DNA of 64,000 nucleotides. It comes from Albidovulum aestuarii (lineage in GTDB: Bacteria > Pseudomonadota > Alphaproteobacteria > Rhodobacterales > Rhodobacteraceae). The stretch is from positions 186,001 through 250,000 of the forward strand of contig NZ_JASBQQ010000003.1 in the NCBI RefSeq assembly GCF_029961185.1, in the 5' to 3' direction. Both the position numbers and the translations under genes were made by a program. The first letter of the stretch is position 1. The number at the start of each line of letters is the position of its first letter. Shown piece by piece: positions 41,148 through 56,690 of this stretch. Below the pieces are notes generated by a model. That model was not told the origin of the DNA and did not search any database. It saw only the letters and a program-made list of their open reading frames with translations.

Positions 41148-42281
41148 TCAGCTTTGCGTGCCGGACGTGGTCGCTCCGGCCAGTTCCGAAGCCGACAGAC
41201 CGGTAATGCCGGTCTGCGCCATCGCGATGCTGAGTTCGTCGCTGATTACATCCCAAAGGCGATGCAGGCCTTCCTCGCCTGCGGCGGCGATGGCGAATTG
41301 CAGGATGCGCCCGAGAAAGACGAAATTTGCGCCCGAGGCGTAGGCTTTCAGCACATCTTCCCCCGACCGGATACCGCTGTCGTAATAGAGCGGGAATGAC
41401 GCGCCGAGCGCGGCCCGGATTTCGGTCAATGCGTGGATTGGCGCGGGTGCGCTTTCCAGTTGCCGCGCGCCGTGGCTGGAGACCTGGATCGCATCGGCCC
41501 CCGCCGATTTCAGCTGCATCGCGTCCTCAGGATCGAGCACGCCTTTCACGACCAGCCGGCCCGGCCAGAGGTCGCGCAACCGTTTCAGTGTGGACCAGTC
41601 AGCCTTTGCCCGGCTTTCAGTGCGATCGAAGGTAAAACCCTCCATCTCGAAATTCGCCATCTGCGGGCGTCCGGCGAAAAGGGTGCTTAGCGACCAGCGC
41701 GGGTGCAGTGCGAAGTCGACGAACTGGCGCGGTCCGATCCTGAAGGGCATGGTGAAGCCGTGGCGCAACTCGCGCGGGCGGCGGCCGACCTCGGGCACAT
41801 CGACCGTCAAAACCAATGTTTTATATCCCGCCGCCTGCGCGCGTTCGACCAGCCGGAAGGTTCCAGATCCGTCGCCGCTGAAATAGAGCTGGAACCATGC
41901 GTTCCCTTCGGCCACCTCGATCAGCCGTTCCATCGGGGTCGAGGCGACAGTCGAGACGCCGAGCGGCACCGCGTCACGCGCCGCGAGCCGGGCCAGCATC
42001 AGGTCGGCGCCGGGGCCTGAAAGATTGCACATGCCCATTGGCGCGATGCCGAAGGGGCGACCGGTTTTCCTGCCGAAAAGTGTCGATGCCAGCGACCGTT
42101 CACTGACATCGCAGAGGATGCGCGGGCGCAGGCAAATCGCGTCGAGCGCCGCCCGTTGCCGCGCCGCGCCGGTCTCGTTCCCCGCCGCGCCGTCGATATA
42201 GTCAAAGACCATCCATGGCAGGCGACGCCGCGCGAGGCGGCGGGCATCGCCGCTGGAGTGGATGTGCCGGGCGGCAGACAT
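41148..42281 (-). CDS. FMN-dependent alpha-hydroxyacid oxidase/dehydrogenase; candidate sulfolactate dehydrogenase
   Basis: 377-residue TIM-barrel flavoprotein of the LldD/glycolate-oxidase family, which oxidises 2-hydroxyacids to 2-oxoacids. Seen: 'RRLPWMVFDYIDGAAGNE', 'FGIAPMGMCNLSGPGADLMLARLA', 'LVVKGVLDPEDAMQLKSAGADAIQVSSHGARQLES' with the catalytic His-Gly-x-Arg, and 'YYDSGIRSGEDVLKAYASGANFVFLGR' for the phosphate. Family consensus 'SNHGGRQLD' reads 'SSHGARQLE' here. It is the last gene of the DHPS-type operon, 3 bp after comE-like, so the likely substrate is 3-sulfolactate giving sulfopyruvate. Substrate is inference from context. Confidence 0.88.
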   Translation of the reverse strand: MSAARHIHSSGDARRLARRRLPWMVFDYIDGAAGNETGAARQRAALDAICLRPRILCDVSERSLASTLFGRKTGRPFGIAPMGMCNLSGPGADLMLARLAARDAVPLGVSTVASTPMERLIEVAEGNAWFQLYFSGDGSGTFRLVERAQAAGYKTLVLTVDVPEVGRRPRELRHGFTMPFRIGPRQFVDFALHPRWSLSTLFAGRPQMANFEMEGFTFDRTESRAKADWSTLKRLRDLWPGRLVVKGVLDPEDAMQLKSAGADAIQVSSHGARQLESAPAPIHALTEIRAALGASFPLYYDSGIRSGEDVLKAYASGANFVFLGRILQFAIAAAGEEGLHRLWDVISDELSIAMAQTGITGLSASELAGATTSGTQS

Positions 42282-42284
42282 GGT

Positions 42285-42839
42285 TCAGGCCTTCACCGCC
42301 TCCATGAAGCGGTGCCGGATGACGACCGGATCCAGCGTGATCACCGGCATCTTGGCATTGCCGCTTTCGCATTTGCTGACGATCACGGTCATGCGGTCGC
42401 CTGCCAGCGCCTCTTCCAGAACCTTCTTGGTGTCCTCCGCCCGGCATTCGATGACGTTGTCGCAACCGCAGGCTTTGGCCACAGCCGTCAGCGATGTTTT
42501 CTTGCCAGCATAGGTCGGCTGGTCGCCGGTCGAACCGTAGGACCCGTTGTCGATGATCAGCAGGATGTAGTTGTTGGCCGAATTGTTGGCGATGGTCGGC
42601 AAAGTTCCGAGATTGGTCAGGACCGAGCCGTCGCCGTCGATGGCGATGACCTTCTTCGGCTGCGCCAGCGCAAGGCCAAGGCCGATCGATGAGGCGAGCC
42701 CCATCGTGCCGAGCATATAGAAATTCGTCGGCTGATCGTCGATGGCGTGCAGTTCCTGGCTCGGGATGCCGATATTGCAGACGACGAGGTGGTCGCGGAT
42801 GACGGGGGCGATTTCGCGCAGGATTTCAGAACGGATCAT
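42285..42839 (-). CDS. comE: Sulfopyruvate decarboxylase beta subunit-like (ComE)
   Basis: 184-residue thiamine-diphosphate C-terminal (pyrimidine/diphosphate-binding) half of a split decarboxylase. 'NIGIPSQELHAIDDQPTNFYMLGTMGLASSIGLGLAL' and the ThDP motif 'IDGDGSVLTNLGTLPTIANNSANN' are typical of ComE and phosphonopyruvate decarboxylase. Start overlaps the comD stop by 4 nt; a longer frame upstream lies inside comD and is rejected. Decarboxylates sulfopyruvate to sulfoacetaldehyde with ComD. Phosphonopyruvate is the main alternative substrate, but no phosphonate genes are near. Confidence 0.85.
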   Translation of the reverse strand: MIRSEILREIAPVIRDHLVVCNIGIPSQELHAIDDQPTNFYMLGTMGLASSIGLGLALAQPKKVIAIDGDGSVLTNLGTLPTIANNSANNYILLIIDNGSYGSTGDQPTYAGKKTSLTAVAKACGCDNVIECRAEDTKKVLEEALAGDRMTVIVSKCESGNAKMPVITLDPVVIRHRFMEAVKA

Positions 42840-43342
42840 TGGTCGCCATAGCCTCCCCAGAAATTGGCATCGGTCAGGATCGCAACCGGTTTCGAGCACA
42901 TGAAGGTGTATTTCAGGATGTTGTCGAGTTCCTCGACATCCTTCTGCCAGTGGAAGTGGTAGGTCGGGATGTTGAGCTGTGCCAGAAGCGCCTTGGTATG
43001 GACCGCCATTTCCACCTGACAGGCGACCGGCTCGCGCAGTTCGCCACGGTAGGAAATCAGCATCGGCAGCGGCATCCGGTAGAACTGGGTCAGCGTCGCC
43101 AGAGTGTTGATCGTCACGCCGATGGCGGTGTTCTGCATGATGATCGCGGGCCGTTTGCCGCCCATGAAGGCACCTGCGCAGAGGCCCATGCCCTCGTCTT
43201 CCTTGTTCGAGGGCACATGCATGATCTCGGGCCGCCGGTCGACCTCGTCGATCACGTCGGCAAGCTGTTTGCACGGGACCGTTGTCACGAACGATATGCC
43301 GTTCGCGACAAGGTCGTTTACGATGCGGGAGTCGATGGACAC
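42836..43342 (-). CDS. comD: Sulfopyruvate decarboxylase alpha subunit-like (ComD)
   Basis: 168-residue N-terminal ThDP (PYR) half: 'ISFVTTVPCKQLADVIDEV', 'VPSNKEDEGMGLCAGAFMGGKRPAIIMQNTAIGVTINTLATLTQFYRMPLPMLISYRGE', where the Glu in 'NKEDEG' would activate ThDP. Partner of the downstream comE-like gene. Split alpha/beta organisation is typical of sulfopyruvate decarboxylase of methanogens (ComDE) and of roseobacter organosulfonate pathways. Confidence 0.85.
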   Translation of the reverse strand: MSIDSRIVNDLVANGISFVTTVPCKQLADVIDEVDRRPEIMHVPSNKEDEGMGLCAGAFMGGKRPAIIMQNTAIGVTINTLATLTQFYRMPLPMLISYRGELREPVACQVEMAVHTKALLAQLNIPTYHFHWQKDVEELDNILKYTFMCSKPVAILTDANFWGGYGDQ

Positions 43343-43408
43343 GGGTTTCGGTCTCCTGATTGATGGTGGCGCAACGCGACGCGCTACGAGTTGGCCGCGT
43401 GGCGGGCT

Positions 43409-43813
43409 TCAGCGCAAGACATGAACGGAACAGGACGCGTGGCGGACGACCCGCGCCGCCGTCGATCCCAGAAAATAGTCCTTCAGACCGGGTTTGTGCG
43501 ATCCGATCACGATACAGTCGGCGCCGATTTCATCCGCATAGTCGGCGATCGTGCGTCCCGTATGGCCGGCAAGAATGACGGGGGTCACATCCTTTTGGTC
43601 GGCGACCCGCTGTTCCAGCCGGGCGCGGGCGGCCTTGAAGGCCGAGTTGACCGTCTCGTCATCGAGATAGGTCCGGACGGAACCCTGGGGTGCTTCGTAC
43701 ACATGAAGCGCAACCATCTCTCCACCCTCGTCAAGAAGCTGTCGGGCGACGCCGATCGCGGAAATGCCGATGCCGTGATCGAGCGCCATCGGGATCAGGA
43801 TCTTTTTATACAA
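43409..43813 (-). CDS. Universal stress protein (UspA family), TTG start
   Basis: 134-residue UspA-fold protein. The TTG start (L/M-Y-K-K-I-L-I-P) is chosen because GGAGAGG lies 6 nt upstream and the family begins with '[10 protein letters not shown]'; an ATG 14 codons upstream would overlap less likely sequence. ATP-binding-type end '[34 protein letters not shown]'. Strongly similar to the second Usp (51503-51937), which lies beside another TRAP transporter. May tune the transporter as TeaD does for TeaABC; inferred. Confidence 0.88.
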
Positions 43814-43847
43814 AGGCCTCTCCTTGTGTCTTGGGACAACGGTGCCG

Positions 43848-44843
43848 TCAGGCACCGGGTGTCAGTATGATTTTCGGTGCGGGCGACTTGCCTGACCGGA
43901 TCTCGCCGAAACTCGCTGCGCCGTCGCTGAGTGGCCTTTGGTCGAGCCAGTCGAGCGGCCCCAGGCGGCCGTCGAAGATCGCGGCCGCGGTCTGACGGAA
44001 ATCTTCAGCGGTATAGGTATAGGTGCCGATGAAAGTGATCTCCTGCAAAGTCATGCGCCGGATATCCAGCCCGCCGGTATTCTCGCCCAGTCCGATATGG
44101 AGGATCACGCCACCGGGTCGGGTATGTCTGGACGCGGTTGCGCGTGTCGCGGCGAAGCCCACACCGTCAAGGACGATGTCGAACAGATCGCCCGCGCCAA
44201 GCTGATCCGGAGCGATGGCATTCTGGCCGCAGCGCTCGCGCAGATAGGTCCGGCGGGTCGGGTTGGGTTCGACCACCGTGACATCCGTGATGCCCTGCGC
44301 GGAAAGGCTGAGCGCGCCGCCAAGACCTATCGCGCCGCCGCCAAGCACAAGGGCCCGTGCCGATGTCGCCGCATCACCCAAAGCGGCGCGACCGAGTCGC
44401 ACGGCATGCCAGCCACAGCCGATCGGTTCGGCCAAAGCGGCCTTGGCGAAGGACACGTCGTCCGGAACCGTGACGAGATTGCGGGCAGGCATCGCTACCC
44501 ACTCGGCGAAGGCGCCTTCGCGCGGCGGCATCGAGATGATCTGACGGCTGGCGCAGAGGTTATCGCGCCCCGCCTGACAGGCCGGGCAGGTGCCGCAGGT
44601 CACGAGCGGATTGATCGTCACACGCTCGCCATCGCGCGGCCCGCCGGTGATCACGCCGGATGCTTCGTGGCCGAGGATCAGGGGCGCGGGCCGCCGTTCG
44701 TCATGGCCAAGATAGGCATGCATGTCCGAGCCGCAGATGCCGACCGCCTCGATCCGGATCAGTTCTTCGTCCGGGCCGGGCGTGGGGTCGGGCATGTCGC
44801 GGTAGGCGAGTGTCTCGGGGGCTTCGTAGACGAGCGCTTTCAT
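43848..44843 (-). CDS. Zinc-dependent alcohol dehydrogenase (MDR family), DHPS pathway
   Basis: 331 residues. Catalytic Zn ligands Cys37 (GICGSDMH) and His in 'ILGHEASG'; structural Zn lobe with four cysteines '[15 protein letters not shown]'; Rossmann motif '[17 protein letters not shown]'. Oxidises a secondary or primary alcohol with NAD(P)+. In DHPS operons two extra dehydrogenases (HpsO, HpsP) interconvert DHPS enantiomers; this and the neighbouring SDR fit that pair, but which is which cannot be told from sequence. Confidence 0.85.
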
Positions 44844-45607
44844 TTCGCGGTGAACCCTCCGTCGACCATGAGGACCTGCCCGGTTACATAGGCCGAGGCT
44901 TCCGAACTTAGGAACAAAAGCGGGCCGTCGATATCCTCCGGCTCGCCATTCCGGCCGATGCAGGTCTGAGCGGCGTTGCGCGCGGTACGTTCGGGATCGG
45001 CGAAGACCGGGGCGGTCAGTTCGGTGCGGAAAAAGCCCGGGCCAATGGCGTTGGCGGTGATGCCATGGCGTGACCAGGCCTCGGCCATGGCACGGGTCAG
45101 TTGGGCGATCCCGCCCTTGGAGGCACCGTAGGCCAAACCGCCAGCAAAGGCGCGCGTCGTCTGCAGCGAGGCGAAGGTGACGATGCGCCCCCAGCCTTTC
45201 TGCTTCATCGCGGGCACCAGCGCCTGACTTAGGAAGAACGGTGCCGCAAGATTGAGGTTCAGCGTCACGTCCCAGCCTTCGGGTGTCACGTCGTCTGCGG
45301 TCTGCCTTGTGTTGATTCCGGCCGCATGGACGACGATATCGGGCGGGCCGAACGGTCCAGCCACGTCACCCGCGATCCCGGCCAGCGCCGAGCGGTCGGA
45401 GAGGTCCGCCTGTACGGCGGCGGTTTCGCCCGCTGCCTCGGCCTGCCAGTCCGCCAGCGCGTCGGCGCGTCGGGCGACGCCCACCACCCTTGCACCCGCC
45501 GCCCCGAGGACGAGGGCCGCGCGGCGACCAAGGCCCGAACTGGCCCCGGTGACACAGGCGACCTTGCCCCTGAGATCGAACAGCGAGGAAGAATGAGGCT
45601 CAGCCAT
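44840..45607 (-). CDS. Short-chain dehydrogenase/reductase, DHPS pathway
   Basis: 255-residue classical SDR: TGASSGLG (19-26) nucleotide loop, 'HAAGINTRQ' (NNAG equivalent), catalytic Ser-Tyr-Lys with 'YGASKGGIAQLTRA', and 'ANAIGPGFFRTELT'. Overlaps hpsN by 8 nt and the zinc dehydrogenase gene by 4 nt, so it is made with them. Likely the second DHPS 2-dehydrogenase/racemising enzyme; the assignment is contextual. Confidence 0.86.
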   Translation of the reverse strand: MAEPHSSSLFDLRGKVACVTGASSGLGRRAALVLGAAGARVVGVARRADALADWQAEAAGETAAVQADLSDRSALAGIAGDVAGPFGPPDIVVHAAGINTRQTADDVTPEGWDVTLNLNLAAPFFLSQALVPAMKQKGWGRIVTFASLQTTRAFAGGLAYGASKGGIAQLTRAMAEAWSRHGITANAIGPGFFRTELTAPVFADPERTARNAAQTCIGRNGEPEDIDGPLLFLSSEASAYVTGQVLMVDGGFTAK

Positions 45608-46907
45608 TGGCGGTCAGGTCGAATTCTTCATCGGGGAAATACTTCGCCAGACGCACATCTGCGGCGCGGGCGTGACCCTCCATCCCCTCCAGCCGCGCGA
45701 TGCGGGCGGTTGCCTCGGCCACGGGTTTCGAGCCTTCGCGGGTTGCCCGCTGCCATGTGACGATCTTCATGTATTTGTGGACGCTGAGCCCGCCGGTATA
45801 GGAGGCGGCGCCCGAGGTCGGCAGCACATGGTTGGTCCCTGCCGCCTTGTCACCGTAGGAGACGGTCGTTTCTTCACCGAGGAAGAGCGACCCATAGCAG
45901 CTCAACCGCGCCAGCCACCAATCGAGATCTTCGGCCTGCACCGTCAGATGCTCAGGCGCATAGTCGTCCGAGGTGGCGGCCATTTCCTCGCGGTCGGCGC
46001 ACAGGATCACCTCGGCATAGTCACGCCAGGCGGCGGTCGCGTTTTCGCGATTAACATCCGGCAGGTCGTCGATATAGGTCGGGACCAGTTCCATCACCTT
46101 TTCCGCCAACGCGCGGTCATCGGTGACGAGCCAGACCGGCGAGTTGTAGCCATGCTCGGCCTGGCTGACGAGGTCGGTCGCCACGATATGGGCATCCGCC
46201 GTCTTGTCGGCGAGGATCAGGCTGTCGGTCGGGCCCGCGATCATGTCGATGCCGACGCGTCCGAAGAGCATGCGCTTGGCCTCGGCCACGAACTGGTTGC
46301 CGGGACCGACGAGGATCTTGGCCCTGGGCAGGCCGAAGAGGCCGAAGGTCATCGCCGCAACGCCCTGCACTCCGCCCATCGCCATGATCTTGTCCGCCCC
46401 GCAAAGATGGGCGGCATAGACGATGGCGGGGGCGATGCCGACGCCGGGACGCGGCGGCGAACAGGCGGTAATATGTTGGCAGCCCGCGACCTTGGCGGTG
46501 GTCACCGTCATGATGGCGCTGGCGATATGGCTGTAACGCCCGCCGGGCACATAGCACCCCGCCGCATCGACCGGGATCGTCTTCTGTCCGACGATCAGGC
46601 CGGGCACGACCTCGTATTCGATATTGGCGACGGTTGATTTCTGCTGCTCGGCAAAGCGGCGCACGTTGTCGTGGCTGAACTGGATGTCGCGCTTGAGCTT
46701 TTCCGGTACCAGCGCGCAGGCGGCCTCGATCTCTTCCGGTGTCAGGATGATCGTCCCGTCGTACTTGTCGAATTTCGCGGCATATTCCATCGCTTTTGCA
46801 TCACCGCCCGCCTCGATGTCGTCGAGGATCGCACGCACGATCTTCTTGGTTTCCGAGGCGTCCGACTTGGAGGTCAGGCTGGCTTTCTTGAGATATTCAC
46901 GGGGCAT
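45600..46907 (-). CDS. hpsN: Sulfopropanediol 3-dehydrogenase HpsN (histidinol-dehydrogenase-like)
   Basis: 435-residue HisD-family protein that in DHPS degraders oxidises (R)-DHPS to (R)-3-sulfolactate in two NAD+ steps. HisD-type zinc ligand motifs are all present: 'SQAEHG', 'GDKAAGTNHVLPTSG', 'GGLSVHKYMK'. 'YVPGGRYSHIASAIMTVTTAKVAGC' replaces the histidinol enzyme's 'YVPGGxAxYPSSVLM'. No his genes are nearby; it sits between a TRAP transporter and alcohol dehydrogenases, the classical hps arrangement. Biosynthetic HisD is the rejected alternative. Confidence 0.87.
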   Translation of the reverse strand: MPREYLKKASLTSKSDASETKKIVRAILDDIEAGGDAKAMEYAAKFDKYDGTIILTPEEIEAACALVPEKLKRDIQFSHDNVRRFAEQQKSTVANIEYEVVPGLIVGQKTIPVDAAGCYVPGGRYSHIASAIMTVTTAKVAGCQHITACSPPRPGVGIAPAIVYAAHLCGADKIMAMGGVQGVAAMTFGLFGLPRAKILVGPGNQFVAEAKRMLFGRVGIDMIAGPTDSLILADKTADAHIVATDLVSQAEHGYNSPVWLVTDDRALAEKVMELVPTYIDDLPDVNRENATAAWRDYAEVILCADREEMAATSDDYAPEHLTVQAEDLDWWLARLSCYGSLFLGEETTVSYGDKAAGTNHVLPTSGAASYTGGLSVHKYMKIVTWQRATREGSKPVAEATARIARLEGMEGHARAADVRLAKYFPDEEFDLTANG

Positions 46908-46917
46908 GCGAAGAATC

Positions 46918-48249
46918 CTACTTGTAGATATCGGGCAGAAGCGTCGTTGAAATCACCGGCAGGTAGGCGATCATAAGCGTGACGATCAGCATGAAGATGA
47001 CGAAGGGCACCGCGCGCCACGCGATCTTGAGGATCGACTCGCCGGTGAGGCCAGAGACAACGAAGAGGTTGAGGCCAAGGGGCGGCGTGATGAAGCCGAC
47101 GCCCAGCGCTGTGATCATCATGATGCAGAACTGAATCTCGTTCATGCCGATGTTGTCGGCCAAGGGCTTCAGGATCGGGGCAAGGATCACGATGTTCGGA
47201 GTTGTCTCCATCACGCAGCCCGCCGCGATGAGAATCCCGACCATCATCAGGATCAGTACCCAGGGTTCATCGCTTACCGAAGTGGCGGCAGAGACGAAGC
47301 CCTGCGGCACGCCCAGGATTGCCAGCGCCTGCGCGAGCGGCAGCGAGAACGCGATGATCGGCAGTATGACGCCGTTCACCTTGGCGGAGCTCACGAGCAT
47401 TGCGGGAAAGTCCGAGAGCTTCAGCGTGCCGAGGATGAACCCCATGATGATGGTGACGACGACCGCGGTCGCGCCGGCTTCAGTGGGTGTCAGACGGCCC
47501 GAGAAGATGCCGTAAAAGATGATCCCGGGAACGATGAACGCGTACCAGCCCGACTTGAGCGAGGTTCCGAGCTGGCTGGCCCATTCCGAGAAGGCCATGT
47601 TGCCGCCGCCTTCCCAGCCGTAGAGCCGGTTCATGATGATATTCGTCGCGAGGATCGAGACGAGGATCGCAATGCCGGGGATCACGGCAGCGAGGAATAG
47701 TGTCGATGCCGAGATGCCCAGAACTAGACCGATAATGATGTAGGCAATCGACGGCGGGATGAGGATGCCTGTGCAGGCACCTGCAGCGACGAGCGCGCAG
47801 GCATAGGGCCTCGGGTATCCGGATTCCACCAGCCGGTCGATGGTCATCCGTCCGACCGCAGCGGCACCGGCCGCGTCTGAGCCGGAAATTGCTGCGAACA
47901 TTCCGCAGACGAGCACCGTCGCCGAACCGAACCCACCCTTGGCGAATTGCGTCAGCGCCTCGGCGACATCAAGGAACTTGCGGCTGAGGCCTGTCCGGAC
48001 CAGAACGTCGCCTGTCAGGATGAAGAGGGGCACCGCTGTCAGTGCGAAGTGGTCGATCCCGTGAAAAAGGCTCTCGCCGACGAGCGACAGAGGCAGCGCG
48101 CCCGAAATGAGCAGCATGAGGATGGCCGACGCGCCGATCGCCGCCCAGACAGGCACGGCGAGCGCCACAAGCAGGATGAAGAGAAGGACTGGACCGTAAA
48201 AGTCCCATCCAAGCTCGATGGTCTGTTCCTGAATTTGGTTCCAAAGCAT
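46918..48249 (-). CDS. TRAP transporter large permease (DctM), probably HpsM
   Basis: 443-residue DctM-family permease with about 12 helices: 'LVALAVPVWAAIGASAILMLL', 'GSDAAGAAAVGRMTIDRLVESGYPRPYACALVAAGACTGILIPPS' (split here), 'EAGATAVVVTIIMGFILG', 'ALGVGFITPPLGLNLFVVSGLTGESI'. Sodium-coupled import of a sulfonate or organic acid delivered by DctP. Lies 10 bp downstream of dctQ and 10 bp upstream of hpsN. Confidence 0.94.
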   Translation of the reverse strand: MLWNQIQEQTIELGWDFYGPVLLFILLVALAVPVWAAIGASAILMLLISGALPLSLVGESLFHGIDHFALTAVPLFILTGDVLVRTGLSRKFLDVAEALTQFAKGGFGSATVLVCGMFAAISGSDAAGAAAVGRMTIDRLVESGYPRPYACALVAAGACTGILIPPSIAYIIIGLVLGISASTLFLAAVIPGIAILVSILATNIIMNRLYGWEGGGNMAFSEWASQLGTSLKSGWYAFIVPGIIFYGIFSGRLTPTEAGATAVVVTIIMGFILGTLKLSDFPAMLVSSAKVNGVILPIIAFSLPLAQALAILGVPQGFVSAATSVSDEPWVLILMMVGILIAAGCVMETTPNIVILAPILKPLADNIGMNEIQFCIMMITALGVGFITPPLGLNLFVVSGLTGESILKIAWRAVPFVIFMLIVTLMIAYLPVISTTLLPDIYK

Positions 48250-48259
48250 CGGCTGGCCC

Positions 48260-48775
48260 TCAATCGAACAGTTTGTCGCCCTCGTACACGGAACGTCCGT
48301 GACGAAGGTCTGATAGGTCGCGAAGGAACGACTGGACGAGGCGGAAGCAGACCAGTGCGAAACCGATCGGCACCGCCGACAGGAACCAGACCTGGCTGAT
48401 GCGAAGCCCGTGCGTCACCGATCCGAATTTCGCGGAAACGATGACCGTCTCGAATGACCAGTAAAGCGCAACCAACGCGACAGCGAACATCACGATGTCA
48501 CCGAAGATGTAGAGCAGCGCCTTCACCCTCCGCCCGACATATTGAAGGATCACGTCGATCCGGATATGGCCGCGCTCTCGCACCGCCGAGGCCGCGCCGA
48601 TCCAGGCGAGGTAGATGAAGGAATAGCGCACGATTTCCTCGCCCCAGATCGAGGAATAGGACAGGATCTCGCGCCGGAGCACCTCGATGAACATCGTGAT
48701 CACAAGCATCACGTAGAAGACAAGCAGCGCCCATCGCTCCGCATTGCGGTTGAGGGCATCAAGAATGCGCGGCAT
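48260..48775 (-). CDS. TRAP transporter small permease (DctQ), probably HpsL
   Basis: 171 residues, four transmembrane helices, with the DctQ signature 'WGEEIVRYSFIYLAWIGAASAVRERGHIRIDVI'. Partners the DctM subunit. Separated from dctP by 120 bp that include a very stable hairpin. Confidence 0.93.
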   Translation of the reverse strand: MPRILDALNRNAERWALLVFYVMLVITMFIEVLRREILSYSSIWGEEIVRYSFIYLAWIGAASAVRERGHIRIDVILQYVGRRVKALLYIFGDIVMFAVALVALYWSFETVIVSAKFGSVTHGLRISQVWFLSAVPIGFALVCFRLVQSFLRDLSDLRHGRSVYEGDKLFD

Positions 48776-48852
48776 GTACTCCTCCCCTCGCCAGCGGCCT
48801 CAGGCGCGCTGGCGCTTTGTCCCGGTCGCTGTCTGTTGGATATTGGCCCGGA

Positions 48853-48881
48853 CCGGACCGGCGCCTATGGCGCCGGTCCGG
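48853..48881 (-). other. Intercistronic hairpin between dctP and dctQ
   Basis: Perfect 13-bp stem CCGGACCGGCGCC/GGCGCCGGTCCGG with a 3-nt loop, no T-run. It lies just after the dctP stop and would protect the 3' end of a processed dctP message, allowing more binding protein than permease. Confidence 0.75.
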
Positions 48882-48895
48882 CATCATGTTGGTGG

Positions 48896-50044
48896 TCAGG
48901 CGTCGTGGACGTAGAACCGTCCCTGGGTGTTCGCCGCCTCTTCGAGCTTGGCGAAAATATCCATCGACCCGGCCAGATCGGTCTTGAACTTGTCCCATTC
49001 GGGACGCTGGTAGCCGCCAGCCTCCTGCCATTCGGCAAGCTGATCTGCCGAGAGTGTATGGAATTCCACGCCGGCCTTGCGGAGTTCCGACATCGCGTAG
49101 TTGCGCGCTGCGGGCACTTTGGCGAGGTTCTGTTGGCGGGTGATCGAGCCCGCGAACATGATGCCTTCCTGTACGTCGCCCGGCAGGCCGTTGAACCATT
49201 CAAGATTCATCGAATAGATCTGGCTGTCCGGCACCGCCTGGGTGAAGGTGACGTGGCTCAGGATGTCCTTGAAGCCGAAGACGTAGAGTGCGCCCACGGC
49301 CGGGTCGAGCGCATCGGCGACACCCTGCTTGATCGCCGACGGTGTTTCACCCCAGGCGACCGGTGTCGGGTTGGCACCGACCATCCGGTAGTACTGCTGA
49401 AGCATTTCGGACCCCGGCACCCGGAACTTGACGCCCGACAGGTCGGATGGCGACAGGACCGGTCCGGCCCCGCCTTTCCGCATCGCGACGACGCGCGGAT
49501 CGATGTTGACATAGAACAGAGCCTTGAAGCCCGAAGCCTCGACCTTCGGATTGACTTCGGCCTTCCAGGCCTCGGAAGAAATGAGGTTCTCGAAGCGTTG
49601 GTTTGACCCGCAGAAGTAGGGCAGATTGATCAGGTCGACCACGCTGGCAAACGGCGCGAAGTTCGACAGCGAATGCTGCGCGCACTGGATCGTGCCGGTT
49701 TGCACGCCCTGAGCCAGCGCACCACCGGCACCCAGCTGGCCACCCGGCGCGAGTTTAACATAGACCTTGCCGTCGGTGGCGTTCTGGATGTTCTCCTTGA
49801 GATCGAGCTGCATGATCGGATAGCTGCGGTCTGCCGTCAGAACATAAGCCGTCGCCAGAGTCATGATGTGCTCGGCCGCCGCCTCGCGCTCTTTCTCTTC
49901 ATTGGCTGTCTGGGCCACGGCCTCGGATGACCAGAGCGTCCCCCCGGCCCCGGCGACCACAGCGGCGGTAAAGCCTCCGCTTGCCGTGAGTTTCAGGAAA
50001 TTGCGGCGTTCGGCCGATTCCACTTCCTTGCGGTCTTTATCCAA
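48896..50044 (-). CDS. TRAP transporter substrate-binding protein (DctP), Tat-exported, probably HpsK
   Basis: 382-residue periplasmic binding protein with a twin-arginine signal 'ERRNFLKLTASGGFTAAVVAG' (split: RR then NFLKL) ending near AVAQ. DctP core: 'KVYVKLAPGGQLGAGGALAQGVQTG', the ligand-carboxylate/sulfonate Arg in 'LSGVKFRVPGSEM', 'GANPTPVAWGETPSAIKQGVADALD'. First transporter gene, after a 61-aa membrane protein gene. Ligand DHPS or a relative is inferred from the operon. Confidence 0.93.
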   Translation of the reverse strand: MDKDRKEVESAERRNFLKLTASGGFTAAVVAGAGGTLWSSEAVAQTANEEKEREAAAEHIMTLATAYVLTADRSYPIMQLDLKENIQNATDGKVYVKLAPGGQLGAGGALAQGVQTGTIQCAQHSLSNFAPFASVVDLINLPYFCGSNQRFENLISSEAWKAEVNPKVEASGFKALFYVNIDPRVVAMRKGGAGPVLSPSDLSGVKFRVPGSEMLQQYYRMVGANPTPVAWGETPSAIKQGVADALDPAVGALYVFGFKDILSHVTFTQAVPDSQIYSMNLEWFNGLPGDVQEGIMFAGSITRQQNLAKVPAARNYAMSELRKAGVEFHTLSADQLAEWQEAGGYQRPEWDKFKTDLAGSMDIFAKLEEAANTQGRFYVHDA

Positions 50045-50066
50045 ATCTCGTCCTCCCGTTGGACTG

Positions 50067-50252
50067 TCAGCCGCCGGTTTTGGCTTTCTGTGCGGCTTCC
50101 CGTTTCAGAATGGCCGCGACGAACAGCACCGACGCGGCGAACAGAACCAGCATTTCCCCGACATCGCTCAGGAAGGCATTTCCAGTCGCTGCGCCCAGCG
50201 TGACGTTGGCGGTAAAGACCACGAACATGACGAGAGAGGCGACGAGAAACAT
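50067..50252 (-). CDS. Small two-helix membrane protein, 61 aa, first gene of the DHPS-type operon
   Basis: Two hydrophobic helices (about 2-22 and 33-50) and a basic tail KREAAQKAKTGG. AGGAG lies 8 nt before the ATG and the gene directly follows the LacI-type operator region, so it is the promoter-proximal gene of the operon and likely real. No family recognised; a small accessory subunit of the TRAP transporter is possible. Confidence 0.72.
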   Translation of the reverse strand: MFLVASLVMFVVFTANVTLGAATGNAFLSDVGEMLVLFAASVLFVAAILKREAAQKAKTGG

Positions 50253-50283
50253 TGTGAGACTCCTGTCGGAATGATTCTGCTAA

Positions 50284-50303
50284 CAATGTAAGCGCTTACA
50301 TTG
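50284..50303. promoter_or_regulatory. LacI-family operator O1, perfect 20-bp palindrome
   Basis: CAATGTAAGC-GCTTACATTG, a fully symmetric site with a central CG pair (AGCGCT), the hallmark of LacI/GalR operators. It lies between the divergent LacI-type regulator gene and the operon for TRAP transport and sulfonate catabolism. Confidence 0.85.
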
Positions 50304-50306
50304 CGT

Positions 50307-50326
50307 GAATGCAAGCCTTTACATTG
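50307..50326. promoter_or_regulatory. LacI-family operator O2, imperfect
   Basis: GAATGCAAGCCTTTACATTG matches O1 at 16 of 20 positions, centre-to-centre distance 23 bp (about two helical turns), so two regulator dimers could bind side by side. Confidence 0.65.
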
Positions 50327-50394
50327 ACTGCCCGGGCAGATTACTTTTTGAGCATGAAACAACGGCACCCATCGTTGCATCTGTCGGGCAAGTT

Positions 50395-51435
50395 ATGACA
50401 TTTCCGCGTTCCGCCCCCACATTGAACGATGTTGCGCAGGCGGCAGGCGTTTCCACGGCGACGGTGTCCCGGTGCCTGAACACGCCCGAACGCGTCATCG
50501 ACAGCACGCGGGAGCGGGTGATGAAAGCCGTTCAAGAACTTGGGTACACGCCGAATTTCGGCGCCCGGGTCATGGCGGCGCGGCGCACCAATACGATCGG
50601 TGCGATTATTCCGACCATGGAAAACGCGGTCTTTGCGCGGGGGCTGCAGGCCTTTCAGGAGGGGCTGCGGGAAAGCGGCTTTACGCTTCTGGTGGCAAGT
50701 TCGTCCTACCGGTCGGACATTGAAGAGGAACAGATCCGTGCGCTCATAGCGCGCGGGGCCGATGGCCTGTTGCTGATCGGCCATGACCGCGATCCGGCCA
50801 TCCTGGACTACCTTCAGGCGCAGAACATCCCGGTTCTGGTCGCGTGGAGTTTCGACCCGGGCGCGCCGCTGCCGTCGGTCGGTTTCGACAATCGCCGGTC
50901 CATGCAGGCCCTCGCCGATACTGTCATCGGGATGGGTCATCGCCGCATCGGTGTCATCTCGGCGATGACGCGCGGCAACGACCGCGCGCGGCTGCGGCTG
51001 GCCGGGATTCGCGATGCGGTTGCTCTGGCTGGGCTCGGTGAGGATGCGGTTACCGTGATCGAAACCACCTATGCGATCGAGACCGGCGCGGAGGCCTTCG
51101 AGACGCTGATGACATCGGATAGCCCACCGACCGCGGTCATGTGTGGAAACGACGTTCTGGCTGTCGGCGCCATGAAGAAGGCCCGTGAGCTTAGCCTTGA
51201 CGTGCCGCGCGATGTGTCGGTCACGGGGTTCGACGATATCGAACTGGCAAGCCTCGTCGATCCGGCGCTGACCACCGTGCATGTGCCCCACCGGGAGATG
51301 GGGCGGCGGGCGGCGCGGGCGCTGGTCGAGATGGTCGATCACGGCCGGTCCGTGCCGAGCGAGGAACTGGCCGCCCATGTCCGCATGAGGGGGTCGGTCG
51401 CCCCGCCCGGTCGCGACACCGGCGCAAAAGCCTGA
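50395..51435 (+). CDS. LacI/GalR-family transcriptional regulator of the DHPS-type operon
   Basis: 346 residues. N-terminal helix-turn-helix 'TLNDVAQAAGVSTATVSRCLN' with hinge helix 'NFGARVMAARRT', then a periplasmic-binding-protein-like effector domain ('TIGAIIPTMENAVFARGLQ', 'RGADGLLLIG', 'TGFDDIELASLVDPALTTV'). Start at MTFPRSAP, the first ATG that gives the usual spacing to the HTH. Divergent from the operon across two palindromic operators, so it is likely its local repressor and controls itself; inducer unknown, presumably DHPS or a pathway intermediate. Confidence 0.93.
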   Translation: MTFPRSAPTLNDVAQAAGVSTATVSRCLNTPERVIDSTRERVMKAVQELGYTPNFGARVMAARRTNTIGAIIPTMENAVFARGLQAFQEGLRESGFTLLVASSSYRSDIEEEQIRALIARGADGLLLIGHDRDPAILDYLQAQNIPVLVAWSFDPGAPLPSVGFDNRRSMQALADTVIGMGHRRIGVISAMTRGNDRARLRLAGIRDAVALAGLGEDAVTVIETTYAIETGAEAFETLMTSDSPPTAVMCGNDVLAVGAMKKARELSLDVPRDVSVTGFDDIELASLVDPALTTVHVPHREMGRRAARALVEMVDHGRSVPSEELAAHVRMRGSVAPPGRDTGAKA

Positions 51436-51502: not shown

Positions 51503-51937
51503 TCAGCTTCTGATCACATAGACCGAACACTTGGCGTGGCGCACCACCCGTGCGGCGTTCGGCCCCAGGAAATAGTCGCGGAAATCCGGGCGATGCGCGC
51601 CGATCACGATGAGGCTGGCGTCCACCTCGTCGGCGGTGGCAAGAATTTCCTGATAGGCCGTGCCGTGCCGGACGATATGGGTGATGTTCTTGTCCTCCGG
51701 CGCGCCAAGGCATCCCGCTATCGCGGCATGAAGCGATGTCGCCGCCTCCTTCAGCGCGCGCTTTTCAGCGTCCTCGCTGAAATAGGTGCCCACGATGCTC
51801 ATGCCGAAATCCGGAATGACGGTCACCACCGCCAGCGACGCGCCGTCCACCCCGGCCAGTTTCTGGGCCTGTGTCAGAATGTCGGCATGATGCTCGGGAT
51901 GAGAGAGGTCGATCGCAACCAGAACTGTATTGGTCAT
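51503..51937 (-). CDS. Universal stress protein next to a TAXI TRAP transporter
   Basis: 144-residue UspA-fold protein: 'VLVAIDLSHPEHHADIL', '[58 protein letters not shown]' (in pieces). Overlaps the TRAP permease stop by 4 nt, so translated with it. Its end is nearly the same as that of the other Usp in the sulfonate operon. TeaD of the Halomonas ectoine TRAP system is the precedent for a regulatory role. Confidence 0.9.
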   Translation of the reverse strand: MTNTVLVAIDLSHPEHHADILTQAQKLAGVDGASLAVVTVIPDFGMSIVGTYFSEDAEKRALKEAATSLHAAIAGCLGAPEDKNITHIVRHGTAYQEILATADEVDASLIVIGAHRPDFRDYFLGPNAARVVRHAKCSVYVIRS

Positions 51938-54528
51938 ACCGCAACTCCTTGGGCTTCCAGCGCAAGCTTTCGCCGACGCTGCATGAACGCGACACCGGCG
52001 AGGAGGATGAATGCCGGGATGTAGAAGATCTCCTTGCGCATCCGGTTCGCCGAGACTTCAAGTTCAGCAACCTCCCAGTCGAAGTCGATGCCAAGCTGTT
52101 CAGCCGTCCCGCCGAAATTCAGGTTGTCGACAAAGATCTTGCCGTCTTCCTCGCGGAACTCGATACCGGCCGCATCCATCAGACGGGTCTGGCCGTCGGC
52201 TCCTGCCGCCCCGAGGGGCAAGAGGTACCTGGCATCGACCGGATCGCCATAAAGGTCTTCCCCCATCATTCGGACACGTATTGATGTGCCATCTCCGGCT
52301 TGTTCGGCCCGCTCAAAGAGTTCGATGCCCGGGCGTGCCTCGAATTTCGGGGTGATCTGATCCATGAAGAAGCCGGGCCGGAAGAGCATGAGCGCCACCA
52401 GCAGCAGGATCGCGCTTTCCCACAGTTTCGAGGGCACGATGAAGTAGTTCATCGTCGCTGCGGCGAAGAGCAGCATCGCAATTGTCGCCACGATGAAGAC
52501 CACCACAGCATGGGCTGGACCGACATTGATCAGCAGAAGGTCGGTGTTGAAGACGAAGAGGAACGGCAGAAGCGCCGTTCGAATCGAGTAGAAGAAGGCC
52601 TGGAAACCGGTCTTCAGTGGGTCCGCCCCGGAAATCGCGGCGGCCGCGAAGCTCGCAAGGCCAACGGGCGGTGTCACATCGGCCATGATGCCGAAATAGA
52701 AGACGAACATATGCACCGCGATCAGCGGTACGATCAGCCCCGATTGCGCGCCAAGCTCGACCACAACACCGGCCATGAGCGACGACACGACGATATAGTT
52801 GGCCGTCGTCGGCAGGCCCATGCCGAGGATGATCGAGATGAGGGCGACGAAGAAGAGCATCGCCATCAGGTTGCCGCCGGACAGGAATTCGACGAATTCC
52901 GCCATGACCTGACCGATCCCGGTCAGAGTGACGGCCCCAACGATGATACCCGCGACACCCATGGCGGCCGCAAGACCGACCATGTTGCGCGCGCCGTCGA
53001 TGAGCCCTTCGGCGATCTCTACGACTCCCCGTTTCGCCTCGTCCATCACGTCGGCAGTCTTGCGGAAGAACGCCTTGATCGGGTGCTGCGTCGCCAAGAT
53101 GATCAGCATGAAGATCGCCGACCAGAAGGCCGAAGCGCCGGGCGATTTCCGCTCGATCATCAAAAGATACATCAGAAGCAGGATCGGCATGATGTAGTGG
53201 ATGCCGGTCTTGAAGATTTCCTTGGTCGGCGGCAGATGCTCCATCGATTCAAGGCTCATCTCCAGATCCGGCTGGCGGGCGGCATAGGCAAGCGCCGCCA
53301 CATAGGACACCGCGATCAGTACGAGGATGACCCAGATCGACGGATCGCCAAGCGCGGTGTTCAGGACGCGGACGATGAAACCGCAAAGCCAGAGCGTTCC
53401 ACCCGCGATGATGATCGAGATTGCGATCATAAAGACTGCGCCTAGCATGAACTTCACCGGGTGCATTTTGCTGGTGCCGGGCAGCTTCATCTTCAGCGCC
53501 TCGAGATGGACGATGTAGATGAGCGCGATATAGGAAATCGCTGCCGGGACGATGGCGGTCTTGACGACCTCGACATAGGAGACGCCGACATATTCGGTCA
53601 TGAGGAAAGCGACCGCGCCCATGACGGGCGGCGTCAGCACGCCGTTGACCGAGGAGGAAACCTCGACCGCGCCCGCCTTGGTGGCCGGGAAACCGACCTT
53701 CTTCATCAGCGGGATGGTGAAGGTACCGGTCGTTACCACGTTGGCGATGGAGGAGCCGGAAATCAGTCCCGTCGCCGCCGAGGCGATGACGGCGGCCTTT
53801 GCCGGTCCGCCGCGCAAATGGCCAAGTGCAGCAAAGGCGAGTTGCAGGAAGTAGTTGCCGGCACCCGCCTTGTTCAAAAGCGCGCCGAACAGAACGAAAA
53901 GAAAGACAAAGCCGGACGACACGCCGAGCGCCACGCCATAGACGCCCTCGGTCGTCAGCATCAGGTGGCTCATCGCCTTTTCAAAGGACGCGCCTTTCCA
54001 GCGCACGACCTCGGGCAGGCCGTCCCACGATCCGAAGAAGACGTACGCGAGGAAGAACAAAGCCACACCCATCAGCGGGAAGCCGAGCGACCGCCGCGCG
54101 GCCTCCATCAGCAGGACGATGCCAATGCCGGCCATGATGAGGTCGGTGGTGTTGGGAATGCCGGTGCGCGCCGCGACACCGGAATAGTCCCACCACTGGT
54201 AGGATGCTGCTGCCGCCGCGACGATTGCCGTGATCCAGGTGAGTACCGGAATATGGTTGCGCGGGCTGGATTTGAAGGCAGGGAACAGAAGAAAGGCGAG
54301 CAGAACCGCAAAGCCAAGGTGAATGGCGCGGGTCTGGGTGTCGTTCCAAAGGCCGACGCCCAGAAGGAAGGGCAGGGGTGAGGCGATCCAGAGCTGGAAC
54401 AGCGACCAGATCAGCGGCGTCCACCAGAGCAGGCGTCGGGCATAAAGCTGATCGGGATTGCGACCGCCGGAATCCGCCTGCGCGACGAGGTCTTCCAGTT
54501 CGCTGGTTCCTGTCACCTTGTCAGTCAT
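51934..54528 (-). CDS. TRAP transporter fused permease (DctQM type) with DUF3394-like tail
   Basis: 864-residue TAXI-TRAP permease with fused small and large membrane subunits. N-terminal DctQ-like part (about 40-180), DctM-like part (about 180-680) with 'AKAAVIASAATGLISGSSIANVVTTGTFTIPLMKKVG', 'EVSSSVNGVLTPPVMGAVAFLMTEYVGVSY' and 'GLPTTANYIVVSSLMAGVV'. The last about 150 residues form a soluble domain (FEARPGIELFERAEQ...) plus a final membrane helix, resembling DUF3394. Works with the binding protein encoded just upstream. Confidence 0.92.
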   Translation of the reverse strand: MTDKVTGTSELEDLVAQADSGGRNPDQLYARRLLWWTPLIWSLFQLWIASPLPFLLGVGLWNDTQTRAIHLGFAVLLAFLLFPAFKSSPRNHIPVLTWITAIVAAAAASYQWWDYSGVAARTGIPNTTDLIMAGIGIVLLMEAARRSLGFPLMGVALFFLAYVFFGSWDGLPEVVRWKGASFEKAMSHLMLTTEGVYGVALGVSSGFVFLFVLFGALLNKAGAGNYFLQLAFAALGHLRGGPAKAAVIASAATGLISGSSIANVVTTGTFTIPLMKKVGFPATKAGAVEVSSSVNGVLTPPVMGAVAFLMTEYVGVSYVEVVKTAIVPAAISYIALIYIVHLEALKMKLPGTSKMHPVKFMLGAVFMIAISIIIAGGTLWLCGFIVRVLNTALGDPSIWVILVLIAVSYVAALAYAARQPDLEMSLESMEHLPPTKEIFKTGIHYIMPILLLMYLLMIERKSPGASAFWSAIFMLIILATQHPIKAFFRKTADVMDEAKRGVVEIAEGLIDGARNMVGLAAAMGVAGIIVGAVTLTGIGQVMAEFVEFLSGGNLMAMLFFVALISIILGMGLPTTANYIVVSSLMAGVVVELGAQSGLIVPLIAVHMFVFYFGIMADVTPPVGLASFAAAAISGADPLKTGFQAFFYSIRTALLPFLFVFNTDLLLINVGPAHAVVVFIVATIAMLLFAAATMNYFIVPSKLWESAILLLVALMLFRPGFFMDQITPKFEARPGIELFERAEQAGDGTSIRVRMMGEDLYGDPVDARYLLPLGAAGADGQTRLMDAAGIEFREEDGKIFVDNLNFGGTAEQLGIDFDWEVAELEVSANRMRKEIFYIPAFILLAGVAFMQRRRKLALEAQGVAV

Positions 54529-54559
54529 GTCCGCCCTCCGCGTACTGAACCGTCAATAT

Positions 54560-54588
54560 GCCGCAACCCCGATAACCGGGATTGCGGC
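54560..54588 (-). other. Intercistronic hairpin between TAXI binding protein and TRAP permease genes
   Basis: 12-bp stem with a 5-nt loop; the only mismatch on DNA becomes a G-U wobble in minus-strand RNA, so it is complete in the transcript. No T-run. Same arrangement as between dctP and dctQ. Confidence 0.65.
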
Positions 54589-54610
54589 CTCTTAAGTTCA
54601 TATGGCGGGC

Positions 54611-55582
54611 TTACATCCAGCCGCGTTCCTTGTAGTACTTCTCGGCGCCCGGATGCAGCGGCGCGGTCAGACCGTCCTTGATCATCTCGGACTCGACCAA
54701 GCTTCCGAAGGCCGGGTGCAACTGCTTGAAATCATCGAAGTTTTCGAATATCGCCTTGACCACGGCATAGACCACGTCATCGGGCACGTTCGCCGACGTC
54801 ACGATGGTTGCCTTCGGACCCCAGGAGGGGATGTCGTCAGCGTTGCCCGGATACATGCCGCCCGGAATGGTCGCCTTCGCATAGGCGGGGTTTTCGGCCA
54901 GAAGAGTGTCGATGCCCGGGCCGGTGAGCGGAATGATCTTCACGTCACAGGTCGAGGTGGCTTCCTGGCTGGAACCATTCGGCAGACCCGCTGCCCAGAT
55001 CGTCGCGTCGATATTGCCATCGCAAAGTGCGGCTGACTGTTCCGACGACTTAAGCTCTGCCGTGAGTGCGAAGTCTGATGTGCTGATCCCTTCGTATTGC
55101 AGAAGCGTTTCCGCCAGCACCCGCGTCCCCGAGCCGGGGTTGGCGATGTTGACCTTCTTGCCCTTGAAGTCAGCCGTCGTGTTGATCCCCGCATCAGCCC
55201 GCGCCATGACGTGCAGCGGTTCGGGATGGACTGAGAAGAGCGAGCGGAGTTCCGGGTAGGGACCATCTTCCGCGAAGGCGCCGGTGCCTGCGATCGAAGC
55301 CGACTGGACGTCCGACTGGACCACGCCGAAATCGAGTTCTGCCTGCCGGATCGTGCGGGCGTTGTAGACGGAGCCACCCGTGGATTCGACCGAGCAGCGG
55401 ATGCCGTGTTCCTTGCGGTCCTTGTTGACCAGACGGCAGATGGCGCCCCCTGTCGGATAGTAGACGCCGGTGACGCCGCCAGTCCCGATCGTGATGAAAC
55501 GCTGTTCCTGGGCTGAAGCCCCCGCAGCAAACGAAACTGCGGCAGCAGCGGCCATACCGAACAATAGCTTGTTCAATGTCAT
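54611..55582 (-). CDS. TAXI-family TRAP transporter substrate-binding protein
   Basis: 323-residue periplasmic protein. Sec signal 'MTLNKLLFGMAAAAAVSFAAGASA'. TAXI family pattern: 'ITIGTGGVTGVYYPTGGAICRLVNKDRKEHGIRC', 'ESTGGSVYNARTIRQAELDFGVVQSDVQ', 'VNIANPGSGTRVLAETLL'. Feeds the fused permease. TAXI ligands are poorly known (glutamate or glutamate-like substrates in a few cases). Confidence 0.93.
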   Translation of the reverse strand: MTLNKLLFGMAAAAAVSFAAGASAQEQRFITIGTGGVTGVYYPTGGAICRLVNKDRKEHGIRCSVESTGGSVYNARTIRQAELDFGVVQSDVQSASIAGTGAFAEDGPYPELRSLFSVHPEPLHVMARADAGINTTADFKGKKVNIANPGSGTRVLAETLLQYEGISTSDFALTAELKSSEQSAALCDGNIDATIWAAGLPNGSSQEATSTCDVKIIPLTGPGIDTLLAENPAYAKATIPGGMYPGNADDIPSWGPKATIVTSANVPDDVVYAVVKAIFENFDDFKQLHPAFGSLVESEMIKDGLTAPLHPGAEKYYKERGWM

Positions 55583-55670
55583 GAGGTCCTCCGAGTTGAG
55601 TAAGATCGTGGTTGGTCACACGTTATATGGCTGAGGGTTGCGTACCTGATCGCCTCTTGTCATCTGAAAA

Positions 55671-56558
55671 CTAATGTTTTTTTTGCGCGACCCAGTAGGC
55701 GTTATGGTCGACCCGCAAATCCTCGTATTTCTTGATTCGCGTTTCTGTCGTCTGGTCGCCGCCTTGGAAGATCATCGCGAGCAGGATTTCCAGAACCGCC
55801 ATGGCCCCTGAATTGCACGCGAAATGGTGTGTGCTGTTGGTCGAAACCAGAAGCGAGATATCGGGTTTGAAATGCGGGGCGACCACTTCGGAATCGGTGA
55901 CGAACACCACGGTCGCGCCGCGCGACTTGGCGAACATCGCCGCCTCGATCGTTTCCCGCGAATAGGGCGTGAAGGTCACCGCGAGCACGACATCCCCCGG
56001 TCCCGCATCGCTCAGTTCGTCAATCGCGCTGCCGACGTGACTTGGGGCTAATTGTATGGATTTCAAAGCCATTTTTGCGATGTAGTGAAAATGGAATGCA
56101 AGCCCGTAGCTGGCCCGCATCGCGGTCACATAGACCGTCCGAGCTTGCAGCAGCAGCTCCGCGACCCGTTCCAGTTTCTCGGTCGACTGGCGCTGCAACG
56201 ACCTTTGAACCACGGCCAGAGAGTTCAGGGTCGCGGTGGCATGGGTGACGCCTGTTGGGCCGTTTTCCCGCAGGGCATCGACCCATTCCCGACCGTCCAC
56301 ATCCTCGGTCGACGATACCAGCGCATGACGGAACGGTTCGCGCATATCATCATAGCCTGCGAACCCCATCTGATGCGCCATCCGGACAAGTGTGAATGTG
56401 CTGACGCCCGATTTCCGGGCGGTTTCGCGGATCGAGTCCAATCCGAACTCCGCCGGATTATCGAGAATGTATTTCGCGACTGTTTTCAGGCGCGGCGAAA
56501 GTGCCGGTGTGACTTCCTTAAGCCTTGAAATCGTTCTGGTTCTTAGCGTTGGGTCCAT
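55671..56558 (-). CDS. MurR/RpiR-family transcriptional regulator
   Basis: 295 residues. N-terminal HTH_6 domain (about 1-80, 'VTPALSPRLKTVAKYILDNPAEFGLDSIRETARKSGVSTFTLVRMAHQMGF' region) and C-terminal SIS domain with 'GPGDVVLAVTFTPYSRETIEAAMFAKSRGATVVFVTDSE'. Start placed at MDPTLRTRT; an ATG 13 codons upstream lacks a ribosome site. Head-to-head with the flavoprotein cassette and upstream of the TAXI TRAP genes, so it may regulate both. Confidence 0.88.
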   Translation of the reverse strand: MDPTLRTRTISRLKEVTPALSPRLKTVAKYILDNPAEFGLDSIRETARKSGVSTFTLVRMAHQMGFAGYDDMREPFRHALVSSTEDVDGREWVDALRENGPTGVTHATATLNSLAVVQRSLQRQSTEKLERVAELLLQARTVYVTAMRASYGLAFHFHYIAKMALKSIQLAPSHVGSAIDELSDAGPGDVVLAVTFTPYSRETIEAAMFAKSRGATVVFVTDSEVVAPHFKPDISLLVSTNSTHHFACNSGAMAVLEILLAMIFQGGDQTTETRIKKYEDLRVDHNAYWVAQKKH

Positions 56559-56690
56559 TCGATTCGTGCCCGTTTCCTGACCGATTGATAATATCATATG
56601 TTATTTTTGGCTGACATTGACCAGCAATGTGATTTCTCAAATGCTTGGGTGGCCGATTGATTGCGGCCAGCCCATGTGACGGGAAGCACC

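Follow-up and report, generated by a model that had tools for sequence, protein, structure and literature searches.

What compound does a tightly packed gene set of Albidovulum aestuarii serve to import and degrade, and where does that degradation end? The DNA analyzed here, referred to as the window, is a stretch of 64,000 nucleotides (contig NZ_JASBQQ010000003.1, positions 186,001 to 250,000), in which eleven minus-strand genes are packed at window positions 41148-50252 opposite a divergent gene for a LacI-family regulator, the total span of 41148-51435 being confirmed. Comparison of the encoded proteins with characterized ones makes it highly probable that these genes form a substrate-inducible operon for the catabolism of 2,3-dihydroxypropane-1-sulfonate (DHPS), of the hps type found in roseobacters and belonging to the Xsc branch. 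DHPS is described in PMC11131964 as an abundant algal sulfonate, through which phytoplankton carbon and sulfur reach bacteria.

Layout of the operon

An earlier note, made from the sequence alone, had read the locus as an operon on one strand for the import and breakdown of DHPS, with tight spacing and a defined gene order opposite a LacI gene. All eleven genes and the LacI gene are present as claimed there, and that interpretation is supported by the present analysis. The order runs from a small membrane protein through DctP, DctQ and DctM of a tripartite ATP-independent periplasmic (TRAP) transporter, a HisD-like protein, a short-chain (SDR) and a medium-chain (MDR) dehydrogenase/reductase, a universal stress protein (Usp), ComD and ComE to a flavin mononucleotide (FMN) enzyme. 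The features are as follows.

50395..51435, plus strand: hpsR, divergent LacI-family regulator (PF00356, PF13377; counterpart of SPO0590; reading frame extendable to GTG 50305)
50310..50323, minus strand: second, degenerate putative HpsR operator TGTAAAGGCTTGCA (partner site in relatives close to TGTAAGCGCTTGCA)
50284..50303, no strand: main putative HpsR operator CAATGTAAGCGCTTACATTG, a perfect 20-bp palindrome (14-bp core 50287-50300)
50067..50252, minus strand: two-helix membrane protein of 61 residues, first operon gene (candidate fourth part of the TRAP transporter for DHPS)
48896..50044, minus strand: hpsK, TRAP receptor, DctP (PF03480; 648 bits to 24gc)
48260..48775, minus strand: hpsL, TRAP small permease, DctQ (PF04290)
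46918..48249, minus strand: hpsM, TRAP large permease, DctM (TIGR00786 over its cut-off; PF06808)
45600..46907, minus strand: hpsN, predicted DHPS 3-dehydrogenase, R-DHPS to R-sulfolactate (799 bits to 8wwe; GRYSH; tree)
44840..45607, minus strand: hpsO, predicted R-DHPS dehydrogenase, SDR (447.5 bits to 8wwf)
43848..44843, minus strand: hpsP, predicted S-DHPS dehydrogenase, zinc MDR (502.2 bits to 8wwd)
43409..43855, minus strand: hpsQ, universal stress protein (PF00582; SPO0597 annotated UspA, hpsQ)
42836..43342, minus strand: comD, predicted sulfopyruvate decarboxylase alpha (TIGR03845)
42285..42842, minus strand: comE, predicted sulfopyruvate decarboxylase beta (TIGR03846)
41148..42281, minus strand: slcD, predicted FMN-dependent sulfolactate dehydrogenase (PF01070; synteny with SPO0598)

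Between adjacent operon genes there is either an overlap of 4-8 bases or a gap of 3-120 bases, and the end of slcD, the last gene, lies 4 bases from a convergent gene identified by eye as DNA polymerase III alpha-like (dnaE-like). A scan for promoters and terminators gave no excess over shuffled sequences (2 vs a mean of 2.1; 6 vs 6.6). Relatives were taken as the best 80 loci by likeness to the query HpsN, a biased sample, of which 60 have full flanks; since 26 of these 60 show the eleven genes in exactly this order, with hpsR divergent, the arrangement reflects more than chance.

HpsN and the accompanying dehydrogenases

The identity of the HisD-like protein, which the earlier note had taken for HpsN, is central to the assignment. 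Among solved proteins, it scores 799 bits with RpHpsN (8wwe), 516 with the Cupriavidus HpsN (8v35) and 255 with the best histidinol dehydrogenase, and it is 83-98% identical to the HpsN of roseobacter hps loci among the best 80. In PMC11382572 the HpsN motif is given as GRY[AS]H, replacing the GSAPL of HisD; the window protein carries GRYSH. All eight zinc and catalytic columns listed for CpHpsN in that paper (His126, Gln248, His251, His411, Glu318, His319, Asp352 and Lys353) are conserved, Thr standing in the place of Ser226, the columns having been read by eye from an ungapped alignment (chain numbering +1) and the letters verified at 127, 249, 252, 412, 319, 320, 353 and 354. In a tree of 19 rows, which included a single HisD row, the window protein and ten HpsN rows from hps loci form one starred group (99/100), with the genome's own HisD on a very long branch outside it.

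The window protein also passes the cut-off of TIGR00069 (hisD), as it would if it were a second histidinol dehydrogenase in an operon unrelated to sulfonates. The genome, however, has a separate HisD on contig C23, which is 38% identical to the window protein and has no GRY[AS]H, the window protein scores threefold higher with HpsN than with HisD, and its gene has those of HpsO, HpsP and ComDE as neighbors. A biosynthetic HisD was thus rejected on the scores (799 vs 255 bits) and the tree, and can be given next to no weight; where the earlier note had considered that the protein might cluster with biosynthetic HisD, it groups with HpsN. On these comparisons, the HisD-like protein is assigned as HpsN.

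The same genome encodes a second HpsN-like protein (G000:C17:393750-395033; L100:13751-15061, minus), 60% identical and also with GRYSH, whose gene lies about 7.5 kb from xsc in a cluster that is flanked by a LysR gene and also encodes an ABC transporter of the oligopeptide type and an enzyme of the enolase superfamily. Six proteins of this second kind from other genomes have GRY[AS]H and varied neighbors, so that the motif alone may not suffice as proof of a DHPS substrate. In an even draw of 295 genomes of the family, HpsN-like proteins (E up to 1e-140), including the second, roughly 60% identical kind, are found in 149.

The extra dehydrogenases HpsO and HpsP expected in the earlier note were likewise recovered, so that hpsN, hpsO and hpsP are all present together: 8wwf, the (R)-DHPS dehydrogenase HpsO, is matched by the SDR with 447.5 bits, and 8wwd, deposited as DsHpsP, by the MDR with 502.2 bits (8WWE, 8WWF and 8WWD being RpHpsN, RpHpsO and DsHpsP in PMC11131964). 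Two roles have been published for these enzymes, between which the window sequence does not decide: PMC11382572 describes them as 2-dehydrogenases interconverting the DHPS enantiomers, and PMC11131964 as gateway dehydrogenases, each specific for one enantiomer, with GabD-2 acting after them.

Predicted uptake, sulfopyruvate formation and desulfonation

For the proposed DHPS importer HpsKLM, the receptor points the same way, as the window DctP scores 648 bits with 24gc ("DHPS TRAP transporter") and 81 bits with the next chain. A complete TRAP set of DctP, DctQ and DctM is present, its role in DHPS uptake and that of the adjacent regulator being assigned by homology. The SlcD protein is an FMN 2-hydroxyacid dehydrogenase (PF01070), 71% identical to the syntenic protein of the Ruegeria pomeroyi strain among the relatives (L037).

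Both subunits of the putative sulfopyruvate decarboxylase exceed the curated cut-offs, ComD with 153.0 bits to TIGR03845 (cut-off 147.95) and ComE with 246.1 bits to TIGR03846 (cut-off 221.5), the window copy being the one over-cut-off ComD match in the genome. The two proteins also match TIGR03297, phosphonopyruvate decarboxylase, and might then be a split form of that enzyme in a phosphonate route; their scores (75.8 bits for ComD, 137.9 for ComE) nevertheless fall below its cut-off of 312.5, while those for the sulfopyruvate models lie above theirs. This assignment was therefore rejected on the model cut-offs and is hardly credible, which leaves ComDE as the predicted sulfopyruvate decarboxylase.

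The earlier note had further supposed that the route leads to sulfoacetaldehyde, with Xsc encoded elsewhere, and had raised the case of a genome lacking both xsc and suyAB. The reverse was found: contig C17 carries xsc (402507-404336; 934.5 bits against a cut-off of 676.4), behind which lie genes for a TauE-type exporter and for Pta (344.8 bits with TIGR00651, cut-off 311.2). Three further genes there encode a molybdopterin enzyme, a 245-residue protein judged by eye to be ferredoxin-like and an anchor of the DmsC type, and together these are provisionally named SoeABC-like. An aminotransferase at C17 407796-409232 reached no curated cut-off. The search for xsc, pta and suyAB suggested there thus yielded the first two, whereas the SuyB-type model (PF20629) has no match in the genome, although it finds a SuyB-like protein in L066 (SuyA was not searched separately). 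To the route of the earlier note can be added CuyA, a D-cysteate sulfo-lyase encoded on the contig of the window (C21:514518-515465; NF052482, 536.2 bits, cut-off 450); because the genome also carries this enzyme, Xsc and CuyA may share the desulfonation.

HpsR and its putative operators

The HpsR protein is 65% identical to that of the R. pomeroyi strain. Although the reading frame opens at GTG 50305, ATG 50395 is the likelier start, and with this start both putative operators, which lie between hpsR and the operon, fall outside the gene. TGTAAGCGCTTACA, with at most one mismatch, is present in 66 of 68 relatives with divergent hpsR, and in none of 1360 base-shuffled gaps; in 63 of the 68 a second putative operator, scored with two mismatches allowed, lies at a distance of 21-23 bp. 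In the 4.24 Mb genome, the 14-bp core has a single exact occurrence. Two further places match it with two mismatches, neither at xsc, and these near-matches are meaningless since the reversed pattern, used as a control, matched at 13 places with up to two mismatches. With the core unique to the window, its near-matches away from xsc and the control pattern commoner, co-regulation of xsc through the HpsR operator was rejected. The operator pair provides a ready sequence handle for finding HpsR regulons.

Proposed pathway

The observed gene content, gene order, homologies and operator conservation point to a scheme in which the reactions, their regulation and the part played by the small protein are predictions. 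HpsR would repress the operon at the tandem operator until DHPS or a product of it is present. DHPS would be imported by HpsKLM, probably together with the 61-residue protein as a stabilizing or regulatory fourth part. HpsO is predicted to act on R-DHPS and HpsP on S-DHPS, so that both enantiomers could be used, and HpsN to oxidize R-DHPS via sulfolactaldehyde to R-sulfolactate, from which the FMN enzyme SlcD would form sulfopyruvate. R-Sulfolactate shares its spatial arrangement with L-lactate, a substrate of the enzyme family to which SlcD belongs. Sulfopyruvate would be decarboxylated by ComDE to sulfoacetaldehyde, which Xsc, encoded on the other contig, would convert into acetyl phosphate and sulfite; Pta would then make acetyl-CoA, and the sulfite would be handled by the SoeABC-like enzyme and the TauE-type exporter. 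CuyA may provide a second exit from sulfopyruvate, via cysteate.

It has to be noted that several points weigh against this assignment. The xsc cluster lies on a different contig and has no operator, so that the last steps of the pathway are not co-regulated through this site, and the model whose cut-off is passed by the MocR-type regulator next to xsc is that of PdxR (339.2 bits against 320), not one specific to sulfonates. SlcD is assigned by synteny and homology, its best curated model giving 264.5 bits, below the cut-off of 376. GabD-2, the sulfolactaldehyde dehydrogenase of roseobacters according to PMC11131964, lies outside the gene set that was searched, and for the organism of the window itself the support comes from sequence comparison.

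SlcD, ComDE and CuyA take part at the level of sulfolactate or further down the route, and homologues from SAR11 are reported in PMC11131964 to be promiscuous, as would suit an operon that serves mainly sulfolactate or another C3 sulfonate, with DHPS as a side substrate. This is improbable, however, as the DHPS-specific parts, HpsNOP and the receptor, match solved DHPS proteins, and roseobacter HpsNOP are reported in the same paper to be specialized for DHPS and induced by it. DHPS accordingly stays the favored substrate of the operon.

Comparison with described systems and relatives

The operon belongs to a type of system that is already published and is not new, because both the "Xsc pathway" and the R. 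pomeroyi cluster are in print. In R. pomeroyi DSS-3, PMC4334477 lists SPO0590 as hpsR (LacI family), SPO0591-0593 as hpsKLM, SPO0594-0596 as hpsN, hpsO and hpsP, SPO0597 as hpsQ (Usp) and SPO0598 as slcD, an order shared with the window, which differs in having comDE between hpsQ and slcD. Proteins of the same-species strain L037 are 51-87% identical to those of the window, with the genes in the same order. A mutant in SPO0591 (hpsK) is reported in PMC10130141, where it served as a positive control, to lose 78.6% of the growth yield and 64.8% of the drawdown on DHPS. The Xsc pathway of PMC11382572 (section 2.8), comprising hpsNOP, slcD, comDE and xsc in one genome as here, was counted there in 37 of 272 cases and includes Jannaschia sp. 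CCS1 and Ruegeria sp. ANG-S4; the latter (L085) has the same twelve genes as the window. The present genome is distinguished by an xsc on another contig, with pta and the SoeABC-like genes. The full TRAP-hpsNOP-comDE-slcD module was studied in roseobacters; its presence here shows that it also occurs outside that group, in a less-studied genus of the Paracoccaceae, the genome being near Defluviimonas (now Albidovulum).

The hpsRNOUP-suyAB cluster of Cupriavidus pinatubonensis JMP134 has HpsN, HpsO and HpsP in common with the window, but relies on uptake by a major facilitator superfamily protein (HpsU) and on SuyAB, in place of TRAP uptake and comDE-slcD. A bifurcated sulfolactate route was reportedly described by Denger in 2009 for Roseovarius nubinhibens, a likeness to the window genome in that both the Xsc and CuyA exits are present in the latter; the examined stretch of R. 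nubinhibens ISM (L040) differs in having hpsR next to hpsN and no hpsKLM or comDE.

Among the 60 fully flanked relatives, hpsKLM is found in 42, comDE in 45 and slcD in 38. A SuyB-like gene, assigned to its family from L066, is present in five of the 80 loci (L010, L027, L042, L066 and L073), where it lies downstream in the hps locus and replaces comDE-slcD. In twelve others (L022, L023, L040, L048, L049, L052, L053, L064, L070, L082, L086 and L088), hpsR and the operator stand directly before hpsN, and hpsKLM and the small gene are absent. No DHPS transporter was found within the examined stretches of loci lacking hpsKLM, and the reading frames around 16 of these, read by eye, showed no common transporter as a replacement.

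A small membrane protein upstream of hpsK

The first operon gene, preceded by a good ribosome site (AGGAG), encodes 61 residues, predicted to form two helices (mean predicted local distance difference test score 84.6), and gives no significant match in Pfam, NCBIfam or PHROGs. A profile built from 18 rows found 59 matches in the 295 genomes, one in each, 58 of which (E ≤ 5e-15) lie immediately upstream of hpsK on the same strand at a distance of 29-139 bases; the remaining match (G302, E = 0.0079) is weak, comes from a genome without hpsK, and was disregarded. In four of the 59 rows a single stop falls inside the match, and it is the natural gene end in all three of these whose loci were examined. 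Two genomes with hpsK and no profile match (G199 and G107) have a short hydrophobic reading frame (70 and 77 aa) at the same place, so that such a frame, 57-77 residues long, precedes hpsK in 60 of the 60 genomes with hpsK, 58 by profile and two divergent ones by inspection. Likewise, all 42 fully flanked relatives with hpsKLM have the small gene.

We consider the chances about even that the DHPS transporter has a dedicated fourth part, namely this two-helix membrane protein, which would lie beside HpsLM in the membrane and stabilize or gate the transporter. Small hairpin or single-helix subunits are known to stabilize or gate other membrane complexes. Somewhat less than even weight can be given to the view that the gene is a translated leader, or that its product is a small membrane protein independent of the transporter: the gene occupies the usual place of a leader, between promoter and hpsK, two hpsK genomes carry only very divergent versions of it, and the link of the protein to the transporter comes from sequence comparison. 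Against this stand the conserved residues of the membrane hairpin, the single weak profile match away from hpsK, and a low ratio of nonsynonymous to synonymous substitution (median 0.17, highest 0.54, from 467 of 1485 pairs; 476 were saturated and others fell outside 0.1-1.5, L037 being left out for a gap). A small reading frame associated with TRAP transporters in general was rejected: of the 11 DctP matches in this genome, hpsK alone has the small gene in front, and the ten others (one a fragment) have no ATG-started frame of 35-110 residues with a hydrophobic stretch in the preceding 500 bases.

This small protein, as a candidate fourth transporter part, might be the sole part of the operon that a specialist would find new. 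A literature search returned no paper on it or on the HpsR operator, which is weak evidence of absence, as most subscription papers lay outside the search. The gene is 55% identical in the R. pomeroyi strain L037, and the consecutive tags SPO0590 and SPO0591 suggest that it was not included when R. pomeroyi was first annotated. If needed for uptake, the protein would be an exception to the three-part view of TRAP transporters, one that is open to testing in R. pomeroyi, where a mutant library is available.

A second TRAP system adjoins hpsR at window positions 51503-56597, consisting of a Usp gene, a fused TRAP permease, an apparent TAXI-type receptor and an RpiR-like regulator, the latter two named by eye.

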